Assembly (NCBI RefSeq): GCF_001646865.1
Contig: NZ_LRRB01000103.1
Location: 1 to 45,765, forward strand
DNA length: 45,765 bases
Source of the DNA: Aldersonia kunmingensis
GTDB lineage: Bacteria > Actinomycetota > Actinomycetes > Mycobacteriales > Mycobacteriaceae
Reading direction: 5' to 3'
This document shows positions 5,559 through 32,113 of this stretch, in pieces; position 1 is the stretch's first letter, and each line of letters starts with the position of its first letter. The notes beneath the pieces are model-generated. The model saw only the letters and a program-made list of their open reading frames with translations. It searched no databases and had not been told where the DNA came from. The position numbers and the translations under genes are program-made.

Positions 5559-6518
5559 ATGACAAGCACGACCGAACGGCCCTCGGCCGCACCCGCCGAA
5601 AGCACACCGGCGCCGGCACCGGAAGAGCCGATTGAGCTCATTGCCCCGGATTCCCTGACCGCCGAAATGGTCGGGCACTGGACCTATCTCATGCTCGAGG
5701 GCGCGGCATTCGCCATGCAGGGAATGCACCCGACCATCAAGGCCGTCACCGACGAATACTCGATCGCGAAGACCGACCCGATGGGCCGCGCGATCCGCTC
5801 GGTCGACTCGGTGCTGCGCTGGACCTACGGCGGCGAAGAGGCGATCGCCGAGGGCAAGCGGCTGCGGTCACTGCATCAGCCGCTGCAGGTGCGCGATCCC
5901 AAGGGAAAGCTGCTCAGCGCCCTCAACCCCGAGGCCTACCAGTGGGTCATCGCGACGGCCTTTGTCACCACCGCCAAGGCCGGACCGCTGTTGATCGGGC
6001 GTGAGTTCACGGGCCCTGAACTCGACGAACTGCTCGCGGACAACATCAAGATCGCGAAGATCGTGCGGGTGCCGATGAAGGGTTACCCGCAGACCCGCGC
6101 CGAGTTCGACGTGTACTACGAGCACATGGTCGCCGACGTGCTCACCGCCGACGACGAAACGAAGGAGCAGTTCCGTCAGCTCAGGACGGGCGAACTCGAG
6201 CAACTGCAATCGAAGCCGCTCGTCGTCCGCAAGGCACTGCAGTTCGCGATGGGCCCGATGCTGCGGTTCAACTACCTGTCCATCGTCGGCCTGCTGGACC
6301 CGCGGTTGCGAGACATGATCGGCGCCCCCTGGACCGAGGAAGACCAGAAGCAGCTCGAGAAGACTTACGCCTGGATCCGGCTGGCCTACAAGGTGCTGCC
6401 CGACCGGCTGACGTACTTCCCGCTCGCGTACCACGCACGCAAGCACCACCAGTGCATCGCGAAGATGAAGGAACGCGAACTGAAGTCGGCGGCATACAAG
6501 GTGCGCCCGAAGCAGTAG
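5559..6518 (+). CDS. oxygenase MpaB family protein (DUF2236), copy 1
   Basis: 319 residues. The DUF2236 pattern is visible: LMLEGAAFAMQGMHPTIKAV with the conserved His-Pro, the block LRSLHQPLQV, and the C-terminal region ending PDRLTYFPLAYHARK. The family includes heme-dependent latex clearing protein (rubber oxygenase) and fungal MpaB, an oxidative cleavage enzyme, so an oxidoreductase acting on a lipid or isoprenoid is plausible but the substrate is unknown. AGGAGG at 5549-5554 gives a strong ribosome site 4 bases before the ATG. It lies 30 bases after the Mce-associated gene, so it probably belongs to the mce transcript. It ends 3 bases before the convergent TetR gene. Confidence 0.8.
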   Translation: MTSTTERPSAAPAESTPAPAPEEPIELIAPDSLTAEMVGHWTYLMLEGAAFAMQGMHPTIKAVTDEYSIAKTDPMGRAIRSVDSVLRWTYGGEEAIAEGKRLRSLHQPLQVRDPKGKLLSALNPEAYQWVIATAFVTTAKAGPLLIGREFTGPELDELLADNIKIAKIVRVPMKGYPQTRAEFDVYYEHMVADVLTADDETKEQFRQLRTGELEQLQSKPLVVRKALQFAMGPMLRFNYLSIVGLLDPRLRDMIGAPWTEEDQKQLEKTYAWIRLAYKVLPDRLTYFPLAYHARKHHQCIAKMKERELKSAAYKVRPKQ

Positions 6519-14373: not shown

Positions 14374-15669
14374 GTGAACAAAGACGACATGATCCTGATC
14401 AGCGTGGACGATCACATCGTCGAACCACCCGACATGTTCACCAATCATCTGCCGAGCAAGTACCTCGAGGACGCGCCCCGCCTGGTCCACAACCCGGACG
14501 GCTCGGACACCTGGCAGTTCCGCGACACTGTGATTCCGAACGTCGCGCTGAACGCCGTCGCGGGCCGCCCGAAGGAGGAGTACGGTCTCGAGCCGCAGGG
14601 CCTCGACGAGATTCGTCCGGGCTGTTTCGACCCCAATGAGCGCGTCAAGGACATGAACGCAGGCGGCGTGCTTGCCACCATGAACTTTCCGTCGTTCCCC
14701 GGTTTCGCCGCGCGACTGTTCGCCACCGACGACTCCGACTTCTCGCTTGCGCTCGTGCAGGCCTATAACGACTGGCATATCGACGAGTGGTGCGCGTCGA
14801 ACCCCGGCCGGTTCATCCCGATGGCGCTCCCGGCGATCTGGGATGCGGAGCTCTGCGCCGCCGAGGTGCGCCGTGTGTCGAAGAAGGGTGTTCACTCGCT
14901 GACCTTCACCGAGAACCCTGCAGCACTCGGATACCCGAGCTTCCACGACGACTACTGGACGCCACTGTGGAAGGCCCTCGTCGACACCGACACGGTGATG
15001 AGCGTGCACATCGGATCGTCGGGCCGGCTGTCGATTCCTGCGCCGGACTCACCGATGGACGTGATGATCACGCTGCAGCCGATGAACATCGTGCAGGCCG
15101 CCGCCGACCTGTTGTGGTCGAAGCCGATCAAGCAGTATCCCGACCTCAAGATCGCGCTGTCCGAGGGCGGCACTGGCTGGATTCCGTACTTCCTCGACCG
15201 CGCCGATCGCACCTACGAGATGCACTCCACCTGGACGCATCAGGACTTCGGCGACAAGAAGCCCTCCGAGGTATTCCGCGAGCACTTCCTGACCTGCTTC
15301 ATCTCGGACCCGAACGGCGTCAAGAATCGCCACGACATCGGCATCGACAACATCTGCTGGGAAATGGACTACCCGCACAGCGACTCGATGTGGCCGGGCG
15401 CTCCCGAGGAGTTGCACGACGTTTTCACGACGTATGACGTCACCGATGACGAGATCAACAAGATCACGCACGAGAACGCGATGCGCTGGTACTCGTTCGA
15501 ACCGTTCAAGCACGTGCCGAAGGAGCAGGCGACCGTCGGCGCACTGCGCAAGTCCGCCGAGGGCCACGACGTCTCCGTGAAGGCGCTGTCCCACCACCGC
15601 GAGAGGTCCGGATCCAGCTTCGCCGAGTTCCAGGAGAAGGCGAAAGCGGTCGCAGGCACGAAGGATTGA
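14374..15669 (+). CDS. amidohydrolase family protein (Amidohydro_2), copy 1
   Basis: 431 residues from GTG 14374, with GGAAGG 7 bases upstream; the frame is open much further up but that part is low-complexity and lacks homology to copy 2. A TIM-barrel metal hydrolase of the ACMSD/2-pyrone-dicarboxylate hydrolase superfamily. Candidate metal ligands are His14 in SVDDHIVEP (the first residue of the usual His-x-His is Asp12 here), His212 in VHIGSS and Asp332 in MDYPHSDSMWP. It probably cleaves a C-N, C-O or C-C bond in a cyclic intermediate. It is a close paralogue of the gene at 20179, sharing long blocks such as AYNDWH-DEWC and PGR-IP-ALP-IWD. Divergent from the Liv operon. Confidence 0.85.
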   Translation: MNKDDMILISVDDHIVEPPDMFTNHLPSKYLEDAPRLVHNPDGSDTWQFRDTVIPNVALNAVAGRPKEEYGLEPQGLDEIRPGCFDPNERVKDMNAGGVLATMNFPSFPGFAARLFATDDSDFSLALVQAYNDWHIDEWCASNPGRFIPMALPAIWDAELCAAEVRRVSKKGVHSLTFTENPAALGYPSFHDDYWTPLWKALVDTDTVMSVHIGSSGRLSIPAPDSPMDVMITLQPMNIVQAAADLLWSKPIKQYPDLKIALSEGGTGWIPYFLDRADRTYEMHSTWTHQDFGDKKPSEVFREHFLTCFISDPNGVKNRHDIGIDNICWEMDYPHSDSMWPGAPEELHDVFTTYDVTDDEINKITHENAMRWYSFEPFKHVPKEQATVGALRKSAEGHDVSVKALSHHRERSGSSFAEFQEKAKAVAGTKD

Positions 15670-18801: not shown

Positions 18802-19911
18802 CTATTCGCCGAACCGGTCGATGAGGTGCGAGGTCCACCCATCGGAATTGAGCTGTCTGGCAACGAGATAGCCGGGCCCCATCCAGCCACGGCGGGTCCA
18901 ATTCCCGAACGAAATACGCGTGCCGGGTGCTCCGGAGGCGGCGGGCACCATCTTCACGCGCTCGAGCGCCTCCTTGACCCCCCGCGGGCTCAGCGGATGC
19001 GCGTTCGCCAGGGCACGCAGGATGGTCACGGCGACATCCCGATTGACCACCGGTACACACCATTCGGGGCGACGGCCGGTCACCGTCGCGAATTCGTCGA
19101 GGAACTGCTGGCCGACCGGATTGTGCTCGTCGTACTGGTCGACGCCGGTCCAGCCCATGAAGGCGTTCCACATAACGGGATTGATCCAGGCATTCTGGAA
19201 CGCGGTGCCTGCGAATCTGGGCGGGTCCCAATCCAGCTCGGCCAGCACCGGGTTGACGAAGACGATGCCGAAACCGAAGCCGCAGTGCACAATTGCGCCG
19301 GCCTTGGCGTCATGCAGGGCTCGCACCGCCTCGCTCGTGTCTTGAGCGGTTTGCGCGATAGTGATCTCGGCGGTGATCCGGATGCCGCGTTCTGCACAAG
19401 CCTTGCGGAAGTTCGCGATATAGGCCTCGCCGACAAGGGATTTCTCCATCAGCACGCCGACGTCGTTGTGACCGCCCTTCACGAGCAGGTCGGCCCAGAA
19501 GATCGGCTCGTCGAAGTGCGATCCCATCGGCAGCGCGAAGAACCACTCGCTCAAGGCCTCGTCGGAGCCGGTCACGCTGAGTGCCGGGACCTTGAATTTC
19601 TCGCCTAGTACTTCTCGGATCGCGACCGCGTTGTCGCCGATATGGGGACCGAATATGACGAGGCACCCTTCCTCGACAAGCTCCTCGTAGGCATCGATGA
19701 CCGCCTTGACCGACCCCTTCGGCAAACCCTCGACCTCGCGGTAGATGACCTCGATGGGCCGGTCGATCAGGCCGCGCTCGAGTGCATCGGCGAAGACCAT
19801 GTCGAAGGGGATCGTCAGGTCGTCTCGCCGTTCCTGCGGGTAGTCGTCGGACAGCACGAAATCCATCAGATAGCCGACTTTGATGGGCTGCGCAGCGCTC
19901 TCGTAGGACAT
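18802..19911 (-). CDS. periplasmic-type ligand-binding protein without a signal peptide
   Basis: 369 residues. The sequence has the Peripla_BP_6 (Liv/AmiC) fold: IKVGYLMDF at residues 9-17, VIFGPHIGDNAVAIREVL, KVPALSVTGSDEA, and GIVFVNPVLAELDW. The N-terminus MSYESAAQPIKVGYLMDF has no hydrophobic core, no lipobox and no twin arginine. ATG 19911 has AGGAG 5 bases upstream, so a missed signal peptide is unlikely. As read, the protein is cytoplasmic: either a ligand sensor or carrier like AmiC, or a binding protein that lost export. It is first in an operon with SDR, LLM and DHDPR genes and has its own near-consensus promoter. A complete Liv transporter with its own binding protein lies 5 kb away. 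Confidence 0.8.
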   Translation of the reverse strand: MSYESAAQPIKVGYLMDFVLSDDYPQERRDDLTIPFDMVFADALERGLIDRPIEVIYREVEGLPKGSVKAVIDAYEELVEEGCLVIFGPHIGDNAVAIREVLGEKFKVPALSVTGSDEALSEWFFALPMGSHFDEPIFWADLLVKGGHNDVGVLMEKSLVGEAYIANFRKACAERGIRITAEITIAQTAQDTSEAVRALHDAKAGAIVHCGFGFGIVFVNPVLAELDWDPPRFAGTAFQNAWINPVMWNAFMGWTGVDQYDEHNPVGQQFLDEFATVTGRRPEWCVPVVNRDVAVTILRALANAHPLSPRGVKEALERVKMVPAASGAPGTRISFGNWTRRGWMGPGYLVARQLNSDGWTSHLIDRFGE

Positions 19912-20178: not shown

Positions 20179-21459
20179 ATGAATATGGATGACTTCGTCC
20201 TTGTCTCGGTCGACGATCACCTCGTCGAACCACCCGATCTGTTCGACAACCACATTCCCGCGAAGTACAAGGACGACGTACCCAAGCTGATCACCCGTGA
20301 TGACGGCACCAACGCCTGGGTGTTCGAGGGCCAGGAGGCGACCAACGTCGGACTCAACGCCGTCGCCGGCCGCCCGCCGGACGAGTACGGCGCCGAGCCG
20401 ACCAAGCTGAGCGAGATCCGCGAAGGCTGCTACAACATCGACGAGCGCATTCGCGACATGAACGCGAACGGTGTCGCCGCGTCGCTGAACTTTCCCTCGT
20501 TTCCGCAGTTCACCGGGCAGTATTTCGCCCGCGCCAAGGACAAGGACCTCGGCCTCGCAGTCCTGAAGGCGTACAACGACTGGCACCTCGACGAGTGGTG
20601 CGGGGCCCACCCCGGCCGCATGATCCCGCTCGCGCTTCCGCCGATCTGGGATCCGCAACTCATGGCCGACGAGGTGCGCCGGGTCGCAAAGAAGGGCTGC
20701 CACGCCGTCACGTTCTCGGAAAACCCGGAGAAGCTGGGTTACCCGTCGCTGCACAGCGACCACTGGGATCCGTTCTGGCAGGCCTGCAATGACGAGAACA
20801 CCGTCGTCTGCCTGCACATCGGCTCGTCGTCGTCCGTCGTCATCACCTCGCTCGACGCGCCGGTGGACACGATGATCACGCTGCAGCCGATGAGTATCGT
20901 GCAGTGCGCTGCCGACATCATCTGGTCGCCGCTGCTGCGCAAGTTCCCCGACCTGACCATCGCGTTGAGCGAGGGCGGAATCGGCTGGATTCCGTATTTC
21001 CTCGAGCGCATCGACCGCGTCTACACGATGCACCGGCATTGGACGCACCAGGACTTCAAGGGTCGTCTGCCCAGCGAGGTGTTCCTGGAGCGGATCGTCA
21101 CGTGCTTTATCGACGACGGTTTCGGCATCGAGAACCGCGACAAGCTCAATGTCGACATGATCACGTGGGAGTGCGACTACCCGCACTCGGATTCGACCTG
21201 GCCGCTCGCACCCGAGTCGCTCGCCAAATACGTTCAGGGCGTGTCGGATTCGGATATCAACAAGATCACGCACGAGAACGCGATGCGACTGTTCTCCTTC
21301 GATATGTTCTCGAAGATCCCGAAGGACCAGTTGACGGTCGGTGCGCTGCGCGCGCAGGCCACCGATGTCGATCTCGGATTCCGGTCGTCGGAGCGACTCA
21401 AGAAGGTTGGCACCGACACCGTCAGCGTGCTCGACCTCGCGAAGAGCCTGCCGTCCTGA
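20179..21459 (+). CDS. amidohydrolase family protein (Amidohydro_2), copy 2
   Basis: 426 residues. ATG 20179 is chosen over ATG 20146 because AGGAG (20168-20172) lies 6 bases upstream and the protein then aligns end to end with copy 1. Candidate metal ligands are His14 (SVDDHLVEP), His213 (LHIGSS) and Asp333 (CDYPHSDSTWP). The two copies share most of the barrel, so they probably act on related substrates or form a heteromeric pair. Divergent from the SBP2 operon; a GC-rich hairpin and then the tandem TetR gene follow on the same strand. Confidence 0.85.
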   Translation: MNMDDFVLVSVDDHLVEPPDLFDNHIPAKYKDDVPKLITRDDGTNAWVFEGQEATNVGLNAVAGRPPDEYGAEPTKLSEIREGCYNIDERIRDMNANGVAASLNFPSFPQFTGQYFARAKDKDLGLAVLKAYNDWHLDEWCGAHPGRMIPLALPPIWDPQLMADEVRRVAKKGCHAVTFSENPEKLGYPSLHSDHWDPFWQACNDENTVVCLHIGSSSSVVITSLDAPVDTMITLQPMSIVQCAADIIWSPLLRKFPDLTIALSEGGIGWIPYFLERIDRVYTMHRHWTHQDFKGRLPSEVFLERIVTCFIDDGFGIENRDKLNVDMITWECDYPHSDSTWPLAPESLAKYVQGVSDSDINKITHENAMRLFSFDMFSKIPKDQLTVGALRAQATDVDLGFRSSERLKKVGTDTVSVLDLAKSLPS

Positions 21460-21571: not shown

Positions 21572-22876
21572 GTGGCGCTCCAGCATCCAACCGATGCGGT
21601 GACACCGGCCGTGGCAGCCGACGCCGCCGATTCCCGGGAGACCAGTCGGCGCGAGGAGATCCTGCAGACCGCCGAGGCGCTGATCGCCACGTCTGGCCTG
21701 CGCACGTCATTGCAGGAGATCGCGAAGGCCGCCGGCATCCTGACCGGCAGCCTGTACCACCATTTCGATTCCAAGGAAGCCCTGCTCATCGAGCTGATTC
21801 GCCGATATCACGGCGAGCTGACCCAGGTTGGCGAGGACGGCCTACGCCGCCTCGATGCGGACGATTCCGCAAGCGTCGACGACCGGGTCGTCGAACTCGG
21901 TTCGGCGATCGCGCACTGCGCGGTGCGCAACCGCGCCGGGCTGCAGATGTCGTTCTACGAGGCGCCCACCGAGAGCGCCGAGCTTGTCGAGTTGCTCGCT
22001 CAGCGGCCGCAAACTGTGCAGGACGCGATGGTGCAGACCTTGCGCGCCGGCCGGTGGAGCGGCTACCTCCGCCCCGATCTCGAGTTGGGCCCGCTGGCCG
22101 ACCGGATGTGCCAATCGATGCTGCACGTCGGCCTGGACGTCATCCGGCGTGACGCCGAACCCGACGAAGTCGCCGCGATGCTTGCGCGAATCATGCTCGA
22201 CGGGTTGGCCGGCAGGATCGTCGACGACGCCGAGTTGGACTCGTCGCCCGCGATGACGTCCGCGGATTCGATCATCGCGACCTGGGCGATCAGCGACTCC
22301 AAACCCGTTGCCGATCGGACCGCGCATATTCGCGCGGCGGCTCTGAAAGTGTTTGGGCGCAAAGGATTCGAGGTCACGACGATTCGAGATATCGCGGCGG
22401 CGGCACAGCTCAACCCAGCCACGGTGCATCGGGTGATCGGCTCGAAGGACGAACTCCTCGCCTCGATCATGCATGCGTTCGGCGAGAAAACGAGCACGGC
22501 TTCGATCGCCGTCCTCGAATCCGATTCCACGTCGATCGAGAAGCTCGACGCGCTCATCTGGATCCATATCAACGCAGTGCTGCAGTTTCCGGACGAGTGG
22601 AAGATTCAGCTCGCGTGGATGCGCCAGTCCCCGCCGGACAACCCCGATCCGGGGCATGCGTTCGGGCTGATGATGGAATGGTTGGAGCGCCTGCTCGCGG
22701 CCGGAATTGCCGATGGCGATATTCGGATCGACGCGGCGGATCTCGCATTGCTCTCGCGCTGCGTAATGGATGTGCTGTGGATGCCGGAAAGCATCATTCG
22801 TGAGCTCGGGCCGCGGCCCGCGCTCGTGCTTGCGCGCGACACGGTGATTCGGGGAATCGTGCGCCGCGAGGCGTGA
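21572..22876 (+). CDS. tandem double-TetR transcriptional regulator
   Basis: 434 residues, about twice a normal TetR. Two HTH domains are visible: one at about residues 28-75 (LQEIAKAAGILTGSLYHHF) and one at about 255-300 (TIRDIAAAAQLNPATVHRVI), each followed by a helical ligand-binding region. This architecture is the same as Mce3R of M. tuberculosis, which controls a mce operon and lipid-oxidation genes. GTG 21572 has GGAGG 4 bases upstream. It follows the amidohydrolase gene after 112 bases. Such a single chain can bind a long asymmetric operator. Orthology to Mce3R is a hypothesis based on architecture. Confidence 0.85.
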   Translation: MALQHPTDAVTPAVAADAADSRETSRREEILQTAEALIATSGLRTSLQEIAKAAGILTGSLYHHFDSKEALLIELIRRYHGELTQVGEDGLRRLDADDSASVDDRVVELGSAIAHCAVRNRAGLQMSFYEAPTESAELVELLAQRPQTVQDAMVQTLRAGRWSGYLRPDLELGPLADRMCQSMLHVGLDVIRRDAEPDEVAAMLARIMLDGLAGRIVDDAELDSSPAMTSADSIIATWAISDSKPVADRTAHIRAAALKVFGRKGFEVTTIRDIAAAAQLNPATVHRVIGSKDELLASIMHAFGEKTSTASIAVLESDSTSIEKLDALIWIHINAVLQFPDEWKIQLAWMRQSPPDNPDPGHAFGLMMEWLERLLAAGIADGDIRIDAADLALLSRCVMDVLWMPESIIRELGPRPALVLARDTVIRGIVRREA

Positions 22877-25313: not shown

Positions 25314-26483
25314 TCAGCCGTCCGTGCTCGAAAGGCGTTGCCGGAGAGTCGCCGCCTGGAGCGTGAGGTGGTTTCGCTCGGCAATGTTGTGCGCCTGCGC
25401 GGCGGCGTCCACGTAGAGCTCCGCGGCCGTTGCCGTGTCACCAGCCCGTTCATGCAGGTAGGCGGCAGATGCGGTGTAGCGCGGAAGTTTCGGGTCGAGT
25501 TGGGCGAGCGCGGCCAGCCCGGCGTGCGGGCCGTCGGCCTCACCGACCGCGACGGCACGGTTGAGCCGCACGATGGGGCTGTCGGTGATGGCGACCAACT
25601 CGTCGTACCACTCGACGATCTGCACCCAGTCGGTTTCGTCGGCGCTCTGCGCGTCGGCGTGCAGCGCGGCGATGGCGGCCTGTGCCTGGTACTCGCCGAG
25701 CCGGTCACGGGCCAGCGCCGCCTGGAGTATCGCGACACCCTCGGCGATCAGGTCGCGCCGCCACAGGTCTCGGTCCTGCTCGCCCAGCGGCACAAGGCTG
25801 CCGTCCGCGCGAGTGCGTGCCGGGCGCCGGGCGTGGTGGAGCAGGAACAGTGCGAGCAATCCCGCGACGTCCGGATCGTCTGTTGTCGAGGCCAATTGAC
25901 GGGCGAGGCGGATCGCTTCGGCGGCGAGATCGACGTCGCCGCTGTATCCCTCGTTGAACACCAGGTACAGCACCCGAAGCACGGTGCGCAGGTCACCGGG
26001 CCGGTCCAAGCGAACATCGCTCACGATCCGCTTGGCCCGGCTGATCCGTTGCGCCATAGTCGCTTCCGGCACCAGGTAGGCCTGTGCGATCTGGCGGGTG
26101 GTGAGCCCCCCGACTGCCCGTAGCGTCAGCGCCACGGCCGACGCAGGCGTGAGGCTGGGGTGCGCGCACAGGAAGTAGAGGTGCAGCGTTTCATCCACGG
26201 ACGCTGCCGGTCCCGGCTCGGGCTCCTCGAAAACGCGAACCTCGCGTTGCTGCCGCGCCGTGTCCGAGCGCGTGAGATCGATGAAGCGTCGCCACGCCAC
26301 GGTGATCAACCAGCCCTTGGGGTCGTCGGGAGGTTGGTTCGGCCACGTCTCGACGGCCCGGAGCAACGCTTCCTGAACCGCGTCCTCGGCGGTCGCGAAA
26401 TCGGCCCCGCGGTGAACGAGGGCGCCAAGGACGCTCGGGATCAGCGCCCTGATCTGCCCCTCGTCCACCGCACCGGCGGTCAT
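25314..26483 (-). CDS. ECF42-type RNA polymerase sigma factor with C-terminal extension
   Basis: 389 residues from ATG 26483; the frame is open upstream but that part overlaps the YCII gene. Sigma region 2 (AEDAVQEALLRAVETWP, then PKGWLITVAWRRFIDLTRSD) and region 4 (LTTRQIAQAYLVPEATMAQR) are followed by a long helical TPR-like C-terminal domain (LYLVFNEGYSG, then LNRAVAVGEADGP). This is the ECF42/DUF6596 type, known to lie beside DGPF/YCII proteins, as here. The start overlaps the YCII stop in an ATGA, so the two are coupled. No anti-sigma factor is seen; the C-terminal domain is thought to be the control element in this family. Confidence 0.9.
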   Translation of the reverse strand: MTAGAVDEGQIRALIPSVLGALVHRGADFATAEDAVQEALLRAVETWPNQPPDDPKGWLITVAWRRFIDLTRSDTARQQREVRVFEEPEPGPAASVDETLHLYFLCAHPSLTPASAVALTLRAVGGLTTRQIAQAYLVPEATMAQRISRAKRIVSDVRLDRPGDLRTVLRVLYLVFNEGYSGDVDLAAEAIRLARQLASTTDDPDVAGLLALFLLHHARRPARTRADGSLVPLGEQDRDLWRRDLIAEGVAILQAALARDRLGEYQAQAAIAALHADAQSADETDWVQIVEWYDELVAITDSPIVRLNRAVAVGEADGPHAGLAALAQLDPKLPRYTASAAYLHERAGDTATAAELYVDAAAQAHNIAERNHLTLQAATLRQRLSSTDG

Positions 26484-26890
26484 CACTCTGTGAAGGTGGG
26501 CGCACCGGTCATGAATGGCCGGAGTTCGAGCCATTCGTGGATCGGCTTGCCACCGGCGCCGGGCGCCGCGGACAGTTCGCCGGCCAATTCGACGGCACGG
26601 TCGTACGAGTCGACGTCGATGATCATCCAGCCCGCGATCAGGTCCTTGGTCTCGGCAAACGGGCCATCCGTGACCGCCGGCTTGCCCTCGCCGTCGTAGC
26701 GAACCCAGGCACCCGTCGGCTCGAGAGCCTGTTCGCTGACGAACTCTCCCGTGCCTTCCAGCTTGGTCGCGAAATCGCGCATGTACTGGATGTGCGCCTG
26801 GATTTCGGCAGGTGCCCACTGGTCCATCGGCGCGTTGTTCACCGAAGCCGGAGCGCCTCGGTAGTGCTTGAGGAGCAGGTACTTCGCCAT
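26483..26890 (-). CDS. YCII/DGPF-domain protein
   Basis: 135 residues. MAKYLLLKHYRG start and the diagnostic VTDGPFAETKDLIAGWMIID with the DGPF motif. Usual length for the family. It is the standard partner of ECF42 sigma factors; biochemical role not established. ATG 26890 has GGGAG upstream, and the four-base overlap with the sigma gene shows a two-gene operon. Confidence 0.92.
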   Translation of the reverse strand: MAKYLLLKHYRGAPASVNNAPMDQWAPAEIQAHIQYMRDFATKLEGTGEFVSEQALEPTGAWVRYDGEGKPAVTDGPFAETKDLIAGWMIIDVDSYDRAVELAGELSAAPGAGGKPIHEWLELRPFMTGAPTFTE

Positions 26891-27020
26891 GACATTCTCC
26901 CTTCGAGTTGCGACCCGTGTTGGTCGCGTACCCCTGGGACGGAGTCGTTGCGGCGTTCTCGACATCCGCTGGCGAAAGCTTTTCACGCCTCGGCGACTGG
27001 GGCTCTCAGGTCGCTTGGGT

Positions 27021-28226
27021 TCATCGGATCCTGACCGGCATCTGAGCCGGGCCGCGCACGCTCGAGGTGTGTCCCATCTTGATGTTGGCGTGGTCAACCT
27101 CCCAGTCGGGCCAGCGCTTCAAGACCTCCTCGAACGCCACCCGCGCCTCGAGCCGCGCCAACGCCGAGCCCAGGCAGAAGTGAATGCCCTGCCCGAAGCT
27201 GAGATGCCCCTCCTTACGGTGGATATCGAAGCGGTTGGGATCGGTGAAGCGTGTTTCGTCACGATTGGCCGATGCGTTGAGCAGCAACATGTATGACCCC
27301 TCGGTCACGGTGTGCCCATAGTGCTCGACATCGCGGGCGACATAGCGCGCCTGCACTGGTGATGGCGGCTCGAACCGCAGGGACTCCTCCACCGCGCCAG
27401 GGATCAGAGATGGATCGGCGACGAGTTCGTGCCGTTGATCGGGATGGTCGCCAAGCAATCGCCCCATAAATCCGATCAGCCGCGCAGTGGTTTCATTCCC
27501 GGCACCGGCGATCATCGCGGTGTAGGCAAGAACCTCGTTGCGGTCGAGCTTCCGAATCGTCCCGTCCTGCTCCTCCACCTCCGCGTTGAGGAGTTCGGTC
27601 ATCAGGTCGTCCGATGGATGCGTCGCCCGCCATTCGATGTACTCGGCGAACGCCGTTAGCGACTCCGCAAATATCTCCAGGCTGATGTCGGCGCTGCCCT
27701 CCTCTCGATGGCCCACGTCGATGCTTCTGTCGGTGATATCCCGGATGTGCTCCTGGCCTTCCTCGGGGATTCCGAGTAGGTAGCCGATCGTGCGCATCGG
27801 CATGATCGCGCCGAGGTCGCGGACGAAATCGAACTCGTCTGCATCGCGCAGGGGATCCAGTGCGCGCGAACAGAATCCACGCACCAGATCCTCGACGGCC
27901 AGCATTCGTCGCGGCGTGAACACCCGGGACAGTAGGCGCCGATGCAGATCGTGGATAGGCGGGTCCTCCCACAGCAGAATGCCGGGCGGCACCTCGAGGC
28001 CGCTGAACAACATGTCGGCTGTCGTGCCGCGCCCCGACCGGTACGTCTGCCAATCCGGCAGAGCCGGCGCGACGTCGTCATAGCGGCTCAGCGCATAGAA
28101 GTTGTACTTCTCGTTGTAATAGAGCGGAGCCTCCGCGCGCAACCGCTGCCAGGCGGGGTACGGATTGTCGTCGATATCGGTGTCATAGGGGTCGTAGTAC
28201 ACATCGACAACGGGATCGGTAGTCAT
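27021..28226 (-). CDS. cytochrome P450, copy 1
   Basis: 401 residues from ATG 28226; upstream in-frame residues (21 codons) overlap the preceding gene and are not P450-like. I-helix AGAGNETTARLIG, EESLRFEPP (ExxR), and heme loop SFGQGIHFCLGSA with axial Cys351. A soluble class I bacterial P450 that needs ferredoxin and reductase from elsewhere, as none is encoded nearby. It is last in an operon with a 45-aa membrane peptide and an AveC-like membrane protein. Close relative of the P450 at 30866 (shared EAPLYYNEK and FYALSR). Confidence 0.93.
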   Translation of the reverse strand: MTTDPVVDVYYDPYDTDIDDNPYPAWQRLRAEAPLYYNEKYNFYALSRYDDVAPALPDWQTYRSGRGTTADMLFSGLEVPPGILLWEDPPIHDLHRRLLSRVFTPRRMLAVEDLVRGFCSRALDPLRDADEFDFVRDLGAIMPMRTIGYLLGIPEEGQEHIRDITDRSIDVGHREEGSADISLEIFAESLTAFAEYIEWRATHPSDDLMTELLNAEVEEQDGTIRKLDRNEVLAYTAMIAGAGNETTARLIGFMGRLLGDHPDQRHELVADPSLIPGAVEESLRFEPPSPVQARYVARDVEHYGHTVTEGSYMLLLNASANRDETRFTDPNRFDIHRKEGHLSFGQGIHFCLGSALARLEARVAFEEVLKRWPDWEVDHANIKMGHTSSVRGPAQMPVRIR

Positions 28227-28266
28227 TTTCGGATCGGCCTTCCGATTAAAAGAGTTGCTGTACAAG

Positions 28267-29052
28267 CTATTTAGGCTGATTCGGCACATCCGGGAACAAC
28301 TGCTCCGTCGGCCCGGCGGTCACATATCCGCCCATCTTCGTCGCGAGGTGGGGAGCGAAAACTGCTCCGTACACGAGGTTTCCGATGATGATCACGGCAA
28401 AGACGGACACAACGCCCGACTGCATCTTCGTCGTCGACACGCGATCGGAAAACATCTCGATGACGTTCCGTCCCTGTTCGTCCGTACGGCCGAGGAGGTA
28501 GGTGAAGACCATCACGAGGATGCCCATCGCGATGGCGTCGTAGATCGGGTACTGGTGCTTGGTTCCCTCGAAGATGGCGAGACCGGGAAGCACATATCCG
28601 TAGTAGAAGACGCCGATCCGGGCGCCGAGGACCCCGTTGAACAGCAGCGCCCAACAGAATCCGACCATCCAGCCAACGGTCAGCAGGGCGATCGGCCGGC
28701 GCCATTGGAACCGCGCGCTCAGCCGGCGTCCGAGCGCGGAACCGACGACGGCGGGCAAGACGAAGTAGGCGATGTAACCGACCGGCACCGAGGACGGCAG
28801 CCCACCCCACGTCTTGTTCAGAGGCCACCACGACGGCATGCGGGGGATGGCGGTGGGGAACTGCGCGTACATCGCCCAGTCGTACGGCGCCTCGATCCAC
28901 GAGATGGAGACAGCCGCAATCGAGACGAGAAGCAGCGGGTGGATGCCGCGCCGGCGGATGCTCAGGTACACGCCGAAGCCGAGGAAGAGGATGCCGCCGA
29001 CGTAGGCAAAAGCAATGGCCCCGATGAGTACAGGGGTCAGTCCTTCACTCAT
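28267..29052 (-). CDS. multi-pass membrane protein, probably AveC-like (spirocyclase AveC family)
   Basis: 261 residues with about six membrane segments: near residues 8-32, 42-65, 90-112, 122-150, 165-188 and 215-238. Polar conserved-looking loops include ISWIEAPYDWAMYAQ, RMPSWWPLNKTWGG and VFYYGYVLPGLAIFEG. I recognise the pattern of actinobacterial proteins named spirocyclase AveC family, related to the avermectin spiroketal-forming protein, but I cannot confirm it without a search. ATG 29052 overlaps the stop of the upstream 45-aa gene; the P450 gene follows after 40 bases. It could be an enzyme on membrane-embedded lipophilic ketones or alcohols, working with the P450. Confidence 0.65.
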   Translation of the reverse strand: MSEGLTPVLIGAIAFAYVGGILFLGFGVYLSIRRRGIHPLLLVSIAAVSISWIEAPYDWAMYAQFPTAIPRMPSWWPLNKTWGGLPSSVPVGYIAYFVLPAVVGSALGRRLSARFQWRRPIALLTVGWMVGFCWALLFNGVLGARIGVFYYGYVLPGLAIFEGTKHQYPIYDAIAMGILVMVFTYLLGRTDEQGRNVIEMFSDRVSTTKMQSGVVSVFAVIIIGNLVYGAVFAPHLATKMGGYVTAGPTEQLFPDVPNQPK

Positions 29053-29186
29053 CCGTGGAGCTCTTCGCTGACTCGGGTGTCCTCGTTGCTCGCGCTACGA
29101 CGTGCCTCGGGATCGAAGTACAGCACCAACCCGAATATGAGGACTATCAGCCCGAACAGTGTCGAAAGCATGATGGCTTGGCCCAC
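29049..29186 (-). CDS. 45-aa single-span membrane peptide
   Basis: GTG 29186 is chosen because AAGGAGG lies 6 bases upstream; the longer frame up to 29276 would put the ribosome site inside the gene. Residues 4-24 (AIMLSTLFGLIVLIFGLVLYF) form one membrane helix, followed by a charged tail (DPEARRSASNEDTRVSEELHG). The ATGA overlap with the AveC-like gene shows tight coupling. Probably a small partner or chaperone of that membrane protein; no family recognised. Confidence 0.65.
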   Translation of the reverse strand: MGQAIMLSTLFGLIVLIFGLVLYFDPEARRSASNEDTRVSEELHG

Positions 29187-29220
29187 GACCAGCCTCCTTT
29201 CACGCGAAAAGCGGATGTTG

Positions 29221-29234
29221 ATAGTGCACACTAT
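29221..29234. promoter_or_regulatory. 14-bp palindrome, candidate TetR operator
   Basis: ATAGTG-CA-CACTAT, perfect 6-bp arms, in the 123-bp space between the divergent 45-aa peptide gene and the TetR gene at 29310. It overlaps possible -10 elements on both strands (TATTAT on plus, ATAATA/TAATAG on minus), so one bound repressor could shut both units. Confidence 0.55.
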
Positions 29235-29309
29235 TATGCGAGTCGGGTCAAGGCCGCTATCGTGGGATTTCGTCAACCGCCGAGTACGGCCCGTCGGAAG
29301 CGAGGAACC

Positions 29310-29972
29310 GTGCCCGGGGAGCGTTCTTCCAAGAAGCAGGGGACCGCCGAGGTCGCGGGCCGAACAGCTCGTCGAGCACCCGGGGAGGCGCGCAAACTTC
29401 TGCTCGACGCCGCTCGAAAATTATTTGCGCGCAAGGACTACCGGACTACAACCACGCGCGAGGTCGCCGAGGCCGCGGGTGTCACCGAATACCTGCTCTT
29501 CCGCCACTTCGGTTCGAAGGCAGGCCTGTTCCGGGAAGCGCTGGTTCTTCCGTTCACCGATTTCATCGACGAGTTCGGCAAGACCTGGCAGGCCGTCGTC
29601 CCCGAGGAAGCCGACGAGGAGACGCTGGCGCGACAGTTCGTCGGCCAGCTCTACGACATCCTCGTCGAGCATCAAGGCCTGCTGCTGACTCTCGTCGCCT
29701 CGGACGGGCTCAGCGACGAGGAGATGGAAGCGGCCGGGATCGCCGATGTCCGGCGGGCGATCGCCCTGCTCGGCCAGATCAGCACCGAGGGCGTCACCCT
29801 ACGCGGAATGCATTCGGGCACACCGGATCTTCCCGCCCACTCAACCGTCGCAATGATCGTCGGCATGGTTGCGCTGCGGTCGACTTTCTTTGGCGACAAG
29901 CCGCCGGCCCGGGACGCGATTGTCGACGAACTGGTGCAGGCAACCCTGCATGGGTTCCTGCACCGCCCGTGA
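29310..29972 (+). CDS. TetR/AcrR family transcriptional regulator
   Basis: 220 residues from GTG 29310 (GGAAGCGAGG upstream); the frame is open to 29055 but that part overlaps the divergent genes and the operator. Basic N-terminus, HTH at about residues 46-70 (TREVAEAAGVTEYLLFRHFG), then a helical ligand domain. Divergent from the peptide/AveC-like/P450 operon and probably its repressor through the palindrome at 29221. Convergent with the SDR gene, 12 bases apart. Confidence 0.85.
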   Translation: MPGERSSKKQGTAEVAGRTARRAPGEARKLLLDAARKLFARKDYRTTTTREVAEAAGVTEYLLFRHFGSKAGLFREALVLPFTDFIDEFGKTWQAVVPEEADEETLARQFVGQLYDILVEHQGLLLTLVASDGLSDEEMEAAGIADVRRAIALLGQISTEGVTLRGMHSGTPDLPAHSTVAMIVGMVALRSTFFGDKPPARDAIVDELVQATLHGFLHRP

Positions 29973-29984
29973 CATGCGGTGGGC

Positions 29985-30803
29985 CTACCGCTTGTTCAGC
30001 TGGCCCGCGTCCACCGGGACAACGGTGCCGGTGATGTAGCGTGCGTCGTCGGAGACCAGCCACGCGATCGCGTTCGAAACATCGATCGGTTCAACGAGAT
30101 CCACCGGCATGGCGTTGGACAGTGCACGCGCCAAATCCGGCGCGTGTTCCATGATGAGCTTCAGGTCTCCGTCGGCCGCCATTGGAGTCCGCACCGCCGT
30201 CGGGGCAACGCTGTTCACCCTGATGCTATGCGGGGCAAGGTAATTGGCCCAGGACCGCATCAGTCCGATGACGCCGTGCTTGGCGGCGGTGTAGCCAAGG
30301 AACCCAGCGGTCGGAATCCCGACACCGATCAGTCCGCCCGTGGAGCTGGTCAGCACGATGGATCCGCCCTGGCCCCGTTCCACCATCGAAGGGATAGCGA
30401 CGCGCCCGGTGTTCCACACGCCCGTGAGGTTGACGCTGAGCACCTCGTCCCATTCCTGCTCCTCGCTGACCCCCGAACCGCCGGCGCCGATACCGGCGTT
30501 GGCCAGGACGATGTCGACCGGACCCAACTCGGCAACGCCCTCTTCGAAGACTTTCCGTAGTTCCGCCACGTCACGAACATCGGCCTGGCGGGCAATGATG
30601 CGCCGATCGAGCTTTTCGACCTCCTTGACGGTCTGCTCGAGTTCCTCGGCAGTGCCCATCGGGTAGCGCACCGAGTCCAGCTGGGAGCAGATGTCGACCG
30701 CGATGATGTCGGCGCCTTCCTCCGCCAGCCGGATCGCGTGGCTGCGGCCCTGTCCACGGGCTGCCCCGGTGATGAAAGCGATTTTGCCGTCGAGTTTTCC
30801 CAC
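29985..30803 (-). CDS. mycofactocin-coupled SDR family oxidoreductase
   Basis: 272 residues from GTG 30803 (GAAGGAG just upstream). GAARGQGRSHA at residues 13-23, the family insertion with YPMGTAEELEQTVKEVE, DIVLANAGI, VNLTGVWNT, catalytic YTAAKHG and PTAVRTPM. These features mark the subgroup whose bound NAD is re-oxidised by the peptide redox cofactor mycofactocin rather than exchanging freely. It oxidises alcohols. It follows the P450 gene after 62 bases in a TetR-P450-SDR operon, so it probably oxidises the alcohol made by that P450. Mycofactocin biosynthesis genes are not in the window. Confidence 0.9.
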   Translation of the reverse strand: MGKLDGKIAFITGAARGQGRSHAIRLAEEGADIIAVDICSQLDSVRYPMGTAEELEQTVKEVEKLDRRIIARQADVRDVAELRKVFEEGVAELGPVDIVLANAGIGAGGSGVSEEQEWDEVLSVNLTGVWNTGRVAIPSMVERGQGGSIVLTSSTGGLIGVGIPTAGFLGYTAAKHGVIGLMRSWANYLAPHSIRVNSVAPTAVRTPMAADGDLKLIMEHAPDLARALSNAMPVDLVEPIDVSNAIAWLVSDDARYITGTVVPVDAGQLNKR

Positions 30804-30865
30804 TACTTCTCCTTCGAGTTCGAGCGAATCACGCTGCCGGATAGCGGAATACAGCGATCTGTCAG

Positions 30866-32113
30866 CTAGCCGACGATGATCGGTAGGTTTTGCCAGCCGC
30901 GGACCGTGGAGGTCGGCGACAATTCGAGTTGATCGCCGTCGACATCCCAGCGTGGGAAGCGCGCGAGGAATTCCTCCATCGCGACTCTGGCTTCGAGACG
31001 TGCCAGCGACGCGCCCAAGCAGAAGTGGATGCCGTGACCGAAGGTGCGCAGGTTGCTCATCTTGCGGTGGATATCGAAGCGGTCCGGGTCCTCCCAGCGA
31101 TCCTCGTCGCGGTTGCCCGATGCGACCATCAGCATCATCGCGCTGCCCGCGGGCACCGTGGTGCCGTGGACCTCGACATCGCGGGCGACGTAACGCGCAA
31201 TTGCATGCCCGGTCGGCTGGAACCGCAGTGCTTCCTCGATGGCCTTGGGGATGAGAGCCGGGTTCTCCACGAGTTCGGCACGCTGGTCGGGGAATTGCGC
31301 CAACAACGAACCGAGCCAACCGAGCAGTCGGGCAGTGGTCTCGTTGCCCGCGCCGGCCACGACTGAGATGTAGGTCAGGATCTCCGGTCGGGTGAGCGTC
31401 CGTGTCACGCCCTCGGTGTCGACGAATTCCGCGCGCAGCAAATCCGTCATCAGATCGTCGGACGGGTGGTCGGCGCGCCAATCGATGTACTGCGCGTATA
31501 GCTCCGCATGCGGAACTGCCGTGTCCCCCACCTTCATCTGCTCGCCGGGCTTGGTTCGCAGGAACGCATCGGTGTGGTCGCGAATTCCCTCCTGGTCGTC
31601 TTCCGGGATCCCGAGCAGCATCCCGATCACGCGCATCGGTACGTCGTTTGCGAATTCCGTCATGAAATCGAAGCGGTCCCGCCCGGCGAGCCGGTCCAGT
31701 GTGCGGATACACAGCTGCCGAACCTGCGGCTCGAGCGACATGATCCGTCGCGGGGTGAACACACTCTTGAGAAGCGCGCGGTGGTTGTCGTGGGCGGGCG
31801 GATCCTCCATCAGCAATGTGCCGGGCGGGATTTCGATGCCGGACTTGATGATTTCCAGGATTGGGCCGCGCGAGGACGAGTAGGTCTTCCAGTCGAGCAG
31901 CGCACGGTCGATGTCGTCGAACCTGCTCAACGCGTAGAAGTCGTGCTTCTCGTTGTAATAGAGCGGAGCCTCGGCGCGCAACCGCTTGTACACGGGATAG
32001 GGATCGCGGGCGATGTCTCTATCCCAGGGATCCCAGTAGACGGGCCCATCGTGATTCACGGGCGGAGCAGTTGCCGTCGCTGCGATAGGACGTTCGGCGT
32101 GTGTTTCGGTCAT
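30866..32113 (-). CDS. cytochrome P450, copy 2
   Basis: 415 residues. I-helix VAGAGNETTARLLGW, ExxR in EEALRFQPTG, heme loop TFGHGIHFCLGASLA with axial Cys365. N-terminal region shares EAPLYYNEK and FYALSR with copy 1, so both come from one subfamily and may hydroxylate related substrates. No redox partner is encoded beside it. ATG 32113 has GAGG upstream. It lies between a TetR gene (48 bases) and the mycofactocin-coupled SDR (62 bases), all on the minus strand. Confidence 0.93.
   Translation of the reverse strand: MTETHAERPIAATATAPPVNHDGPVYWDPWDRDIARDPYPVYKRLRAEAPLYYNEKHDFYALSRFDDIDRALLDWKTYSSSRGPILEIIKSGIEIPPGTLLMEDPPAHDNHRALLKSVFTPRRIMSLEPQVRQLCIRTLDRLAGRDRFDFMTEFANDVPMRVIGMLLGIPEDDQEGIRDHTDAFLRTKPGEQMKVGDTAVPHAELYAQYIDWRADHPSDDLMTDLLRAEFVDTEGVTRTLTRPEILTYISVVAGAGNETTARLLGWLGSLLAQFPDQRAELVENPALIPKAIEEALRFQPTGHAIARYVARDVEVHGTTVPAGSAMMLMVASGNRDEDRWEDPDRFDIHRKMSNLRTFGHGIHFCLGASLARLEARVAMEEFLARFPRWDVDGDQLELSPTSTVRGWQNLPIIVG

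Follow-up and report, generated by a model that had tools for sequence, protein, structure and literature searches.

A conserved 45-residue micro-protein paired with a short-type AveC-like membrane protein in Aldersonia kunmingensis and related actinobacteria

Results and Discussion

Organization of the locus

The DNA analysed here, in the following called the window, comprises 45,765 nucleotides of the Aldersonia kunmingensis genome. An earlier note on this DNA had described three consecutive open reading frames coding for a small membrane peptide, an AveC-like protein and a cytochrome P450, and all three were found with the same boundaries on the minus strand (Table 1). The four nucleotides shared by the first two genes may couple their translation. 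For the P450 (P450a) the ATG at 28226, 40 nt past the stop codon of the AveC-like gene, is the likely start; position 28289, the start of the longest open reading frame, was rejected. P450a scores 80.7 bits against PF00067, above the gathering score (cut-off 22.8), and contains the haem-binding motif FGQGIHFCLG. A scan of positions 26850-29400 found no promoters, and the terminator-like sites in this region were no different from those in shuffled sequences. A search of a plasmid collection gave no match to the window.

Table 1. Features of the AveC-like locus and their positions in the window.
Feature	Position	Strand	Basis
Cytochrome P450 (P450a)	27021..28226	-	PF00067; neighbourhood survey
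Short-type AveC_like membrane protein, 261 aa, six long helices	28267..29052	-	PF17198, E=1.3e-77; AlphaFold
ATGA shared by micro-protein stop and AveC-like start	29049..29052	-	Sequence; 4-nt overlap
Micro-protein (45 aa, one helix, GTG start)	29049..29186	-	ORF, neighbour loci, codon constraint, pairing
Shine-Dalgarno-like sequence AAAGGAGG, 6 nt 5' of the micro-protein GTG	29193..29200	-	Read from sequence
Palindrome ATAGTGTGCACTAT, probable TetR operator	29221..29234	.	0.01 expected in window
Divergent TetR-family regulator	29310..29972	+	PF00440, 4.5e-17
Mycofactocin-coupled type SDR oxidoreductase	29985..30812	-	TIGR03971, 369 bits, cut-off 300
Second P450 (P450b), 56% identity to P450a	30866..32113	-	Profile and sequence comparison

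Besides these genes the window harbours amidohydrolases, a luciferase-like oxidoreductase, a branched-chain-type transporter and binding-protein-like genes. Downstream of P450a on the same strand (25314-26890, minus) the gene of a YCII-domain protein overlaps that of an ECF-type sigma factor with DUF6596.

The AveC-like protein

The similarity to AveC claimed in the earlier note is borne out by the profile search, in which the protein reaches 260.8 bits against PF17198 (gathering score 26.6) and aligns with its residues 33-259 to positions 2-234 of the 234 profile positions. An AlphaFold model built with 31 sequences (mean pLDDT 78, pTM 0.81) comprises six long helices (7-34, 39-64, 86-115, 119-145, 170-188 and 209-231), with residues 66-88 at a pLDDT under 50. 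Structure searches yielded no fold match (best Foldseek match in the PDB at E 0.18, best Z 5.2 in a second look, best BFVD match at E 0.96), and a sequence search of the PDB gave no significant relative. The most conserved stretches lie around E-A-P-Y-D-W-A-M-Y-A-Q-F and E-G-T-x-x-Q-Y-P. Judged from loop charges, the short AveC-like protein is probably oriented N-out/C-out, and by our reading of the topology these stretches would form an active site near the outer face.

AveC, the namesake of PF17198, is described in two reports as having a dual spiroketal-forming and dehydrating role in avermectin biosynthesis (PMC6490886; PMC13303154). By the Pfam match the window protein belongs to the same family. 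However, compared by way of the family profile it differs from AveC in having fewer helices per chain, a separate one-helix partner and oxidoreductase neighbours. Moreover, while an AveC-type spirocyclase is expected to be encoded in a polyketide cluster, a Pfam scan of 27 of the 43 genes called in the window, each in its correct frame, detected no polyketide-synthase family, in line with the earlier note, which placed the locus outside such a cluster. That note had also mentioned action on spiroketal precursors; this is described for AveC itself, and nothing in our analysis backs spiroketal chemistry here.

In titles and the beginnings of abstracts we found nothing on a pair of AveC-like protein and micro-protein or on the function of mycobacterial AveC-like proteins, and in the accessible part of one article a "spirocyclase AveC family protein" is named only as the carrier of a signature indel (PMC5819568). 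The AveC_like family itself is already known and little studied; what is new is the probable split enzyme together with its fused relatives.

The micro-protein is a conserved gene

The micro-protein has a single hydrophobic stretch (best 19-residue hydropathy mean 2.72) and is without significant match in Pfam or NCBIfam. Scanning genome contigs for the AveC-like protein gave 159 confirmed relatives, and the best 80 of them were fetched. One of these 80 is from Aldersonia and is the nearest (87% identity); the others are labelled as mycobacterial genera, as Mycobacteriaceae or, once, as Actinomycetota. Directly upstream of the AveC-like gene the micro-protein was present in 79 of these best 80 loci, with the same 4-nt overlap in 63 of the 79. 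In the exception (L038) the AveC-like gene is intact and the micro-protein is reduced to a remnant. Only its end is left there at about 5930-6001 (IGAVVYFDPEARPS), and the same locus carries a long AveC-like gene.

Comparison of 80 micro-protein sequences, that of the window and the 79 others, revealed seven invariant residues (M1, G2, L7, L10, L13, D25 and P26), the first being encoded by GTG or ATG. In its own frame the mean pairwise pS is 0.48 versus a pN of 0.12 (pN/pS 0.25), and there is no synonymous excess in the two other frames of the ORF. Because the micro-protein lies upstream in almost every locus and shows this excess in its own frame, it goes beyond a chance open reading frame: it is a real gene under codon constraint, and more solid than the earlier note could know. 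Lack of AveC similarity in profile searches and absence of the peptide in relatives had been named there as results that would speak against the proposal, and neither occurred.

Micro-protein and short-type AveC-like gene occur together

Conservation upstream of AveC-like genes is seen also in whole genomes, which were searched with the micro-protein profile. Only the best candidates per genome were scored, so the genome counts are lower bounds. In the family sample 9 of 151 genomes gave a match, eight of them at E below 1e-17 and adjoining the gene of a short-type AveC-like protein; the remaining match, in G119 (E 2e-4), falls within a frame of 479 aa and was taken to be due to chance and left out. 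The genus sample of 118 mycobacterial genomes contained 64 micro-protein matches in 62 genomes, and in the same 62 genomes there were 64 AveC-like matches of at least 330 bits. Every one of these has its micro-protein partner, the gap between both genes ranging from -15 to 39 nt. Eight further genomes of this sample have weaker AveC-like matches only and no micro-protein match, including one with a broken (G201) and one with a fused gene (G208). The gene in G201 (L157) is a short-type AveC-like gene broken into two frames.

In the class sample 19 of 345 genomes harbour the micro-protein. These are the same 19 that have a strong short-type match, and both genes are adjacent in 19 of 19. Five of the 19 genomes are from another family, in which the micro-protein and the 4-nt overlap are retained. 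The constant unit consists of the micro-protein and the AveC-like protein.

Long types and a class with a fused helix

The AveC-like rows collected (n=63, some genes having been fetched twice) comprise 15 short and 48 long ones. Each of the 48 long rows has 48 or more residues ahead of the start point of the short type, including a hydrophobic stretch (19-residue mean at least 1.41), while 13 of the 15 short rows are without N-terminal extension; the other two, L096 and L097, were counted as short, their apparent extension being a falsely picked upstream start. The window protein has no extra N-terminal helix either. Its long paralogues in the same genome (G000, contigs C9, C50 and C74) belong to the same Pfam family but differ in having the extra N-terminal helix and no micro-protein. 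Several relatives have a long copy no more than about 10 kb from the short one. An AlphaFold model of a long paralogue was poor (mean pLDDT 59) and was not used.

We also considered that the micro-protein could be a long-type N-terminal helix that became detached, and rejected this, as hhalign gave no such match. Its best matches were two columns (217-218) in one class of long types and columns 115-129, in the third helix, in the other.

The nearest relatives of the short type form a fused class, called F (L184-L190), found in 7 of 297 genomes of the genus. Its members are without N-terminal extension and differ from the short type by an extra helix fused at the C-terminus, just past the conserved QP with which the short type ends; in L189, for instance, this helix reads GALIVWGLLIGFVILFVYW. 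The two fused loci checked (L155 and L156) have no micro-protein-like ORF upstream, and fused class and short type have pathway neighbours in common. One relative (L159) is an exception to a seven-helix rule: it branches just outside the short type and the fused class, has six helices without the extra one, and is without a small hydrophobic ORF on its strand.

Probable kinship of the micro-protein and the fused helix

When 85 micro-proteins were aligned to the seven fused helices with hhalign, a score of 25.6 was obtained (E 4.8e-5, probability 68%). The 45 control segments stayed below this, six short-AveC helix segments reaching at most 12.4 and 39 long-type segments at most 18.2, and none of 300 column permutations reached 25.6, the best one scoring 25.0.

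A profile of the fused helices gave a median of 7.7 on the 85 micro-proteins (maximum 17.6, minimum -0.3); 29 of 5000 shuffles reached the median and none of 5000 the maximum. With this profile 89 unrelated helices scored at most 8.0 and 186 short-AveC helix segments at most 8.1, the five second-family micro-proteins scored from 8.8 to 17.6, and the window micro-protein scored only 1.0 bit. In the reverse direction the micro-protein profile scored the seven fused helices from 7.9 down to -0.8 (L190), with a median of 6.5; 14 of 5000 shuffles reached this median and 3 of 5000 the maximum. One of the 89 unrelated helices scored 8.6, which is above the best fused helix. Taken together, kinship between the micro-protein and the C-terminal helix of class F is moderately supported by these sequence comparisons, which fall short of proof.

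A maximum-likelihood tree computed from 44 rows groups the short type in one clade (100/100) and joins this clade to the fused class (99/89). Relative to the short type the fused class is probably paraphyletic; the branch concerned is weak (86/72), and in 17% of the bootstrap trees a single branch separates the fused rows from all others. Such paraphyly suggests an older fused state, from which the micro-protein split off. Because the C-terminal helix of class F resembles the micro-protein, the latter probably arose by gene fission.

Neighbouring genes

The earlier note had regarded micro-protein, AveC-like protein and P450 as one coupled unit, which applies to the first two. Relatives of P450a (at least 60% identity) follow directly downstream, as in the window, in 27 of the 80 loci, lie across the TetR gene in another 27, occur only downstream on the opposite strand (convergent) in three, and were not detected in the DNA fetched for the other 23, which for some loci ended early. 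Because position and presence of the P450 vary over the 80 loci, the constant unit is limited to the other two proteins. Of the 39 P450a orthologues in the genus sample (at least 72% identity), 37 are no more than 3 kb away from a micro-protein/AveC-like pair, and 27 of the 64 pairs have no such orthologue within this distance. The P450 is often associated with the pair without being obligatory. Two second-family genomes have a P450 nearby that resembles P450b more closely (60%) and lies next to an amidohydrolase and the pair.

A divergent TetR gene is located just upstream of the unit in 65 of the 80 loci. In the window the palindrome listed in Table 1, for which the expectation allows up to one mismatch, lies between the TetR gene and the micro-protein. 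A pattern of this palindrome, defined when some of the counted loci had already been inspected, is found upstream of the AveC-like gene in 43 of the 80 loci, with 44 occurrences in total in 975 kb; the palindrome is a probable TetR operator.

The dehydrogenase gene adjoining the TetR gene codes for a protein of the mycofactocin-coupled type, above the curated TIGR03971 cut-off, and is a probable pathway partner. Several relatives have P450s, an aldehyde dehydrogenase, dehydrogenases and a long AveC-like gene next to the unit, and also a periplasmic-binding-protein-like gene and NorQ/VWA genes.

Some other window genes have relatives near AveC-like genes as well. A Peripla_BP_6 protein (18802-19911, minus strand) starts with MSYESAAQPIKVGYLMD and has no obvious signal peptide; many of the clusters surveyed have a relative of it beside AveC-like genes, and it may serve the pathway as a cytosolic ligand-binding protein. 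The regulator encoded at 21572-22876 (plus strand) has 434 aa and matches TetR_N twice in the same chain; second-family relatives of it lie near the AveC-like unit. Two Amidohydro_2 proteins are encoded on the plus strand at 14374-15669 and 20179-21459, and relatives with 79% identity directly adjoin the micro-protein/AveC-like pair in L147 and L154.

Proposed role of the micro-protein

Small one-helix proteins encoded beside a larger membrane partner are known from the Kdp pump (KdpF) and from the AcrB pump (AcrZ). CydX of cytochrome bd oxidase is likewise shorter than 50 residues, has one helix and is encoded beside a larger membrane partner (PMC4325964). Our micro-protein also has fewer than 50 residues and one membrane helix, and is encoded with a polytopic partner. 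For CydX and AcrZ the physical association with the partner is established, whereas here it is inferred, and the partners are unrelated.

The explanation we favour, and hold to be reasonably likely, is that the micro-protein is an obligate subunit which provides the seventh helix of a short-type AveC-like enzyme, arose by fission and serves an oxidative pathway under TetR control. Both chains would be translated together by means of the ATGA overlap. The micro-protein, like the fused helix, is predicted from loop charges to be N-out/C-in, and would insert beside the six-helix bundle with both ends outside, completing a seven-helix heteromer much as CydX and other one-helix subunits complete their enzymes. 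The ancestor would have carried this helix at its C-terminus until fission released it. Made under control of the TetR regulator, the two-part protein may take part, together with P450s, the mycofactocin-type dehydrogenase and, in relatives, the aldehyde dehydrogenase, in a pathway that oxidises a lipophilic compound. The P450 and the dehydrogenases would oxidise this substrate, and the AveC-like part would most likely dehydrate, hydrate or cyclise the oxidised intermediate, a chemistry borrowed from AveC. A "membrane oxidation system", as suggested in the earlier note, may be at work here. A more far-reaching version, in which the fission-born seventh helix also tethers the soluble P450, so that hydroxylation is followed by cyclisation or dehydration in a mycofactocin-dependent relay of an undescribed pathway, appears improbable to us as a whole.

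The micro-protein might instead be a regulatory membrane protein that binds and tunes the AveC-like protein, neither forming a structural helix nor sharing descent with the fused one. Small one-helix regulators do exist, such as AcrZ with its partner AcrB (PMC7267776), the kinship with the fused helix is just moderate, and L159 is a six-helix form that exists alone. However, the near-perfect one-to-one pairing and the fused relatives fit a subunit better, and we consider pure regulation rather unlikely. Less probable still is that the main task of the micro-protein is to hold the soluble P450 at the membrane and close to the AveC-like protein. The invariant D25 and P26 at the predicted cytosolic end in 80 sequences would suit an anchor, as would the location of nearly all P450a orthologues of the genus sample close to a pair, but the micro-protein is kept in the 27 genus pairs without such a P450 within 3 kb and also in loci where the fetched DNA contains no P450a relative (23 of 80).

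The 4-nt overlap suits translational coupling and would thus be compatible with a leader, that is, a short ORF whose translation controls expression of the AveC-like gene and whose product has no role. The conservation at the amino-acid level, with seven invariant residues and a pN/pS of 0.25, and the similar helix fused to the AveC-like protein in relatives make this a very improbable explanation.

With the favoured reading, that of a seventh-helix subunit, a conserved gene of about 30-50 codons, present in mycobacteria, in Aldersonia and in a second family of the class, gains a testable role. If it is true, one branch of AveC-like proteins works as two chains, and the short type expressed without the micro-protein should fail. 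The split form alongside naturally fused relatives would be unusual evidence on the origin of one-helix micro-proteins, and the pair points towards a P450/mycofactocin pathway yet to be characterised. Nine genomes (G146, G243, G312, G512, G520, G559, G576, G098 and G220) have short and long AveC-like genes no more than about 12 kb apart, and therefore two AveC-like proteins may serve one pathway.
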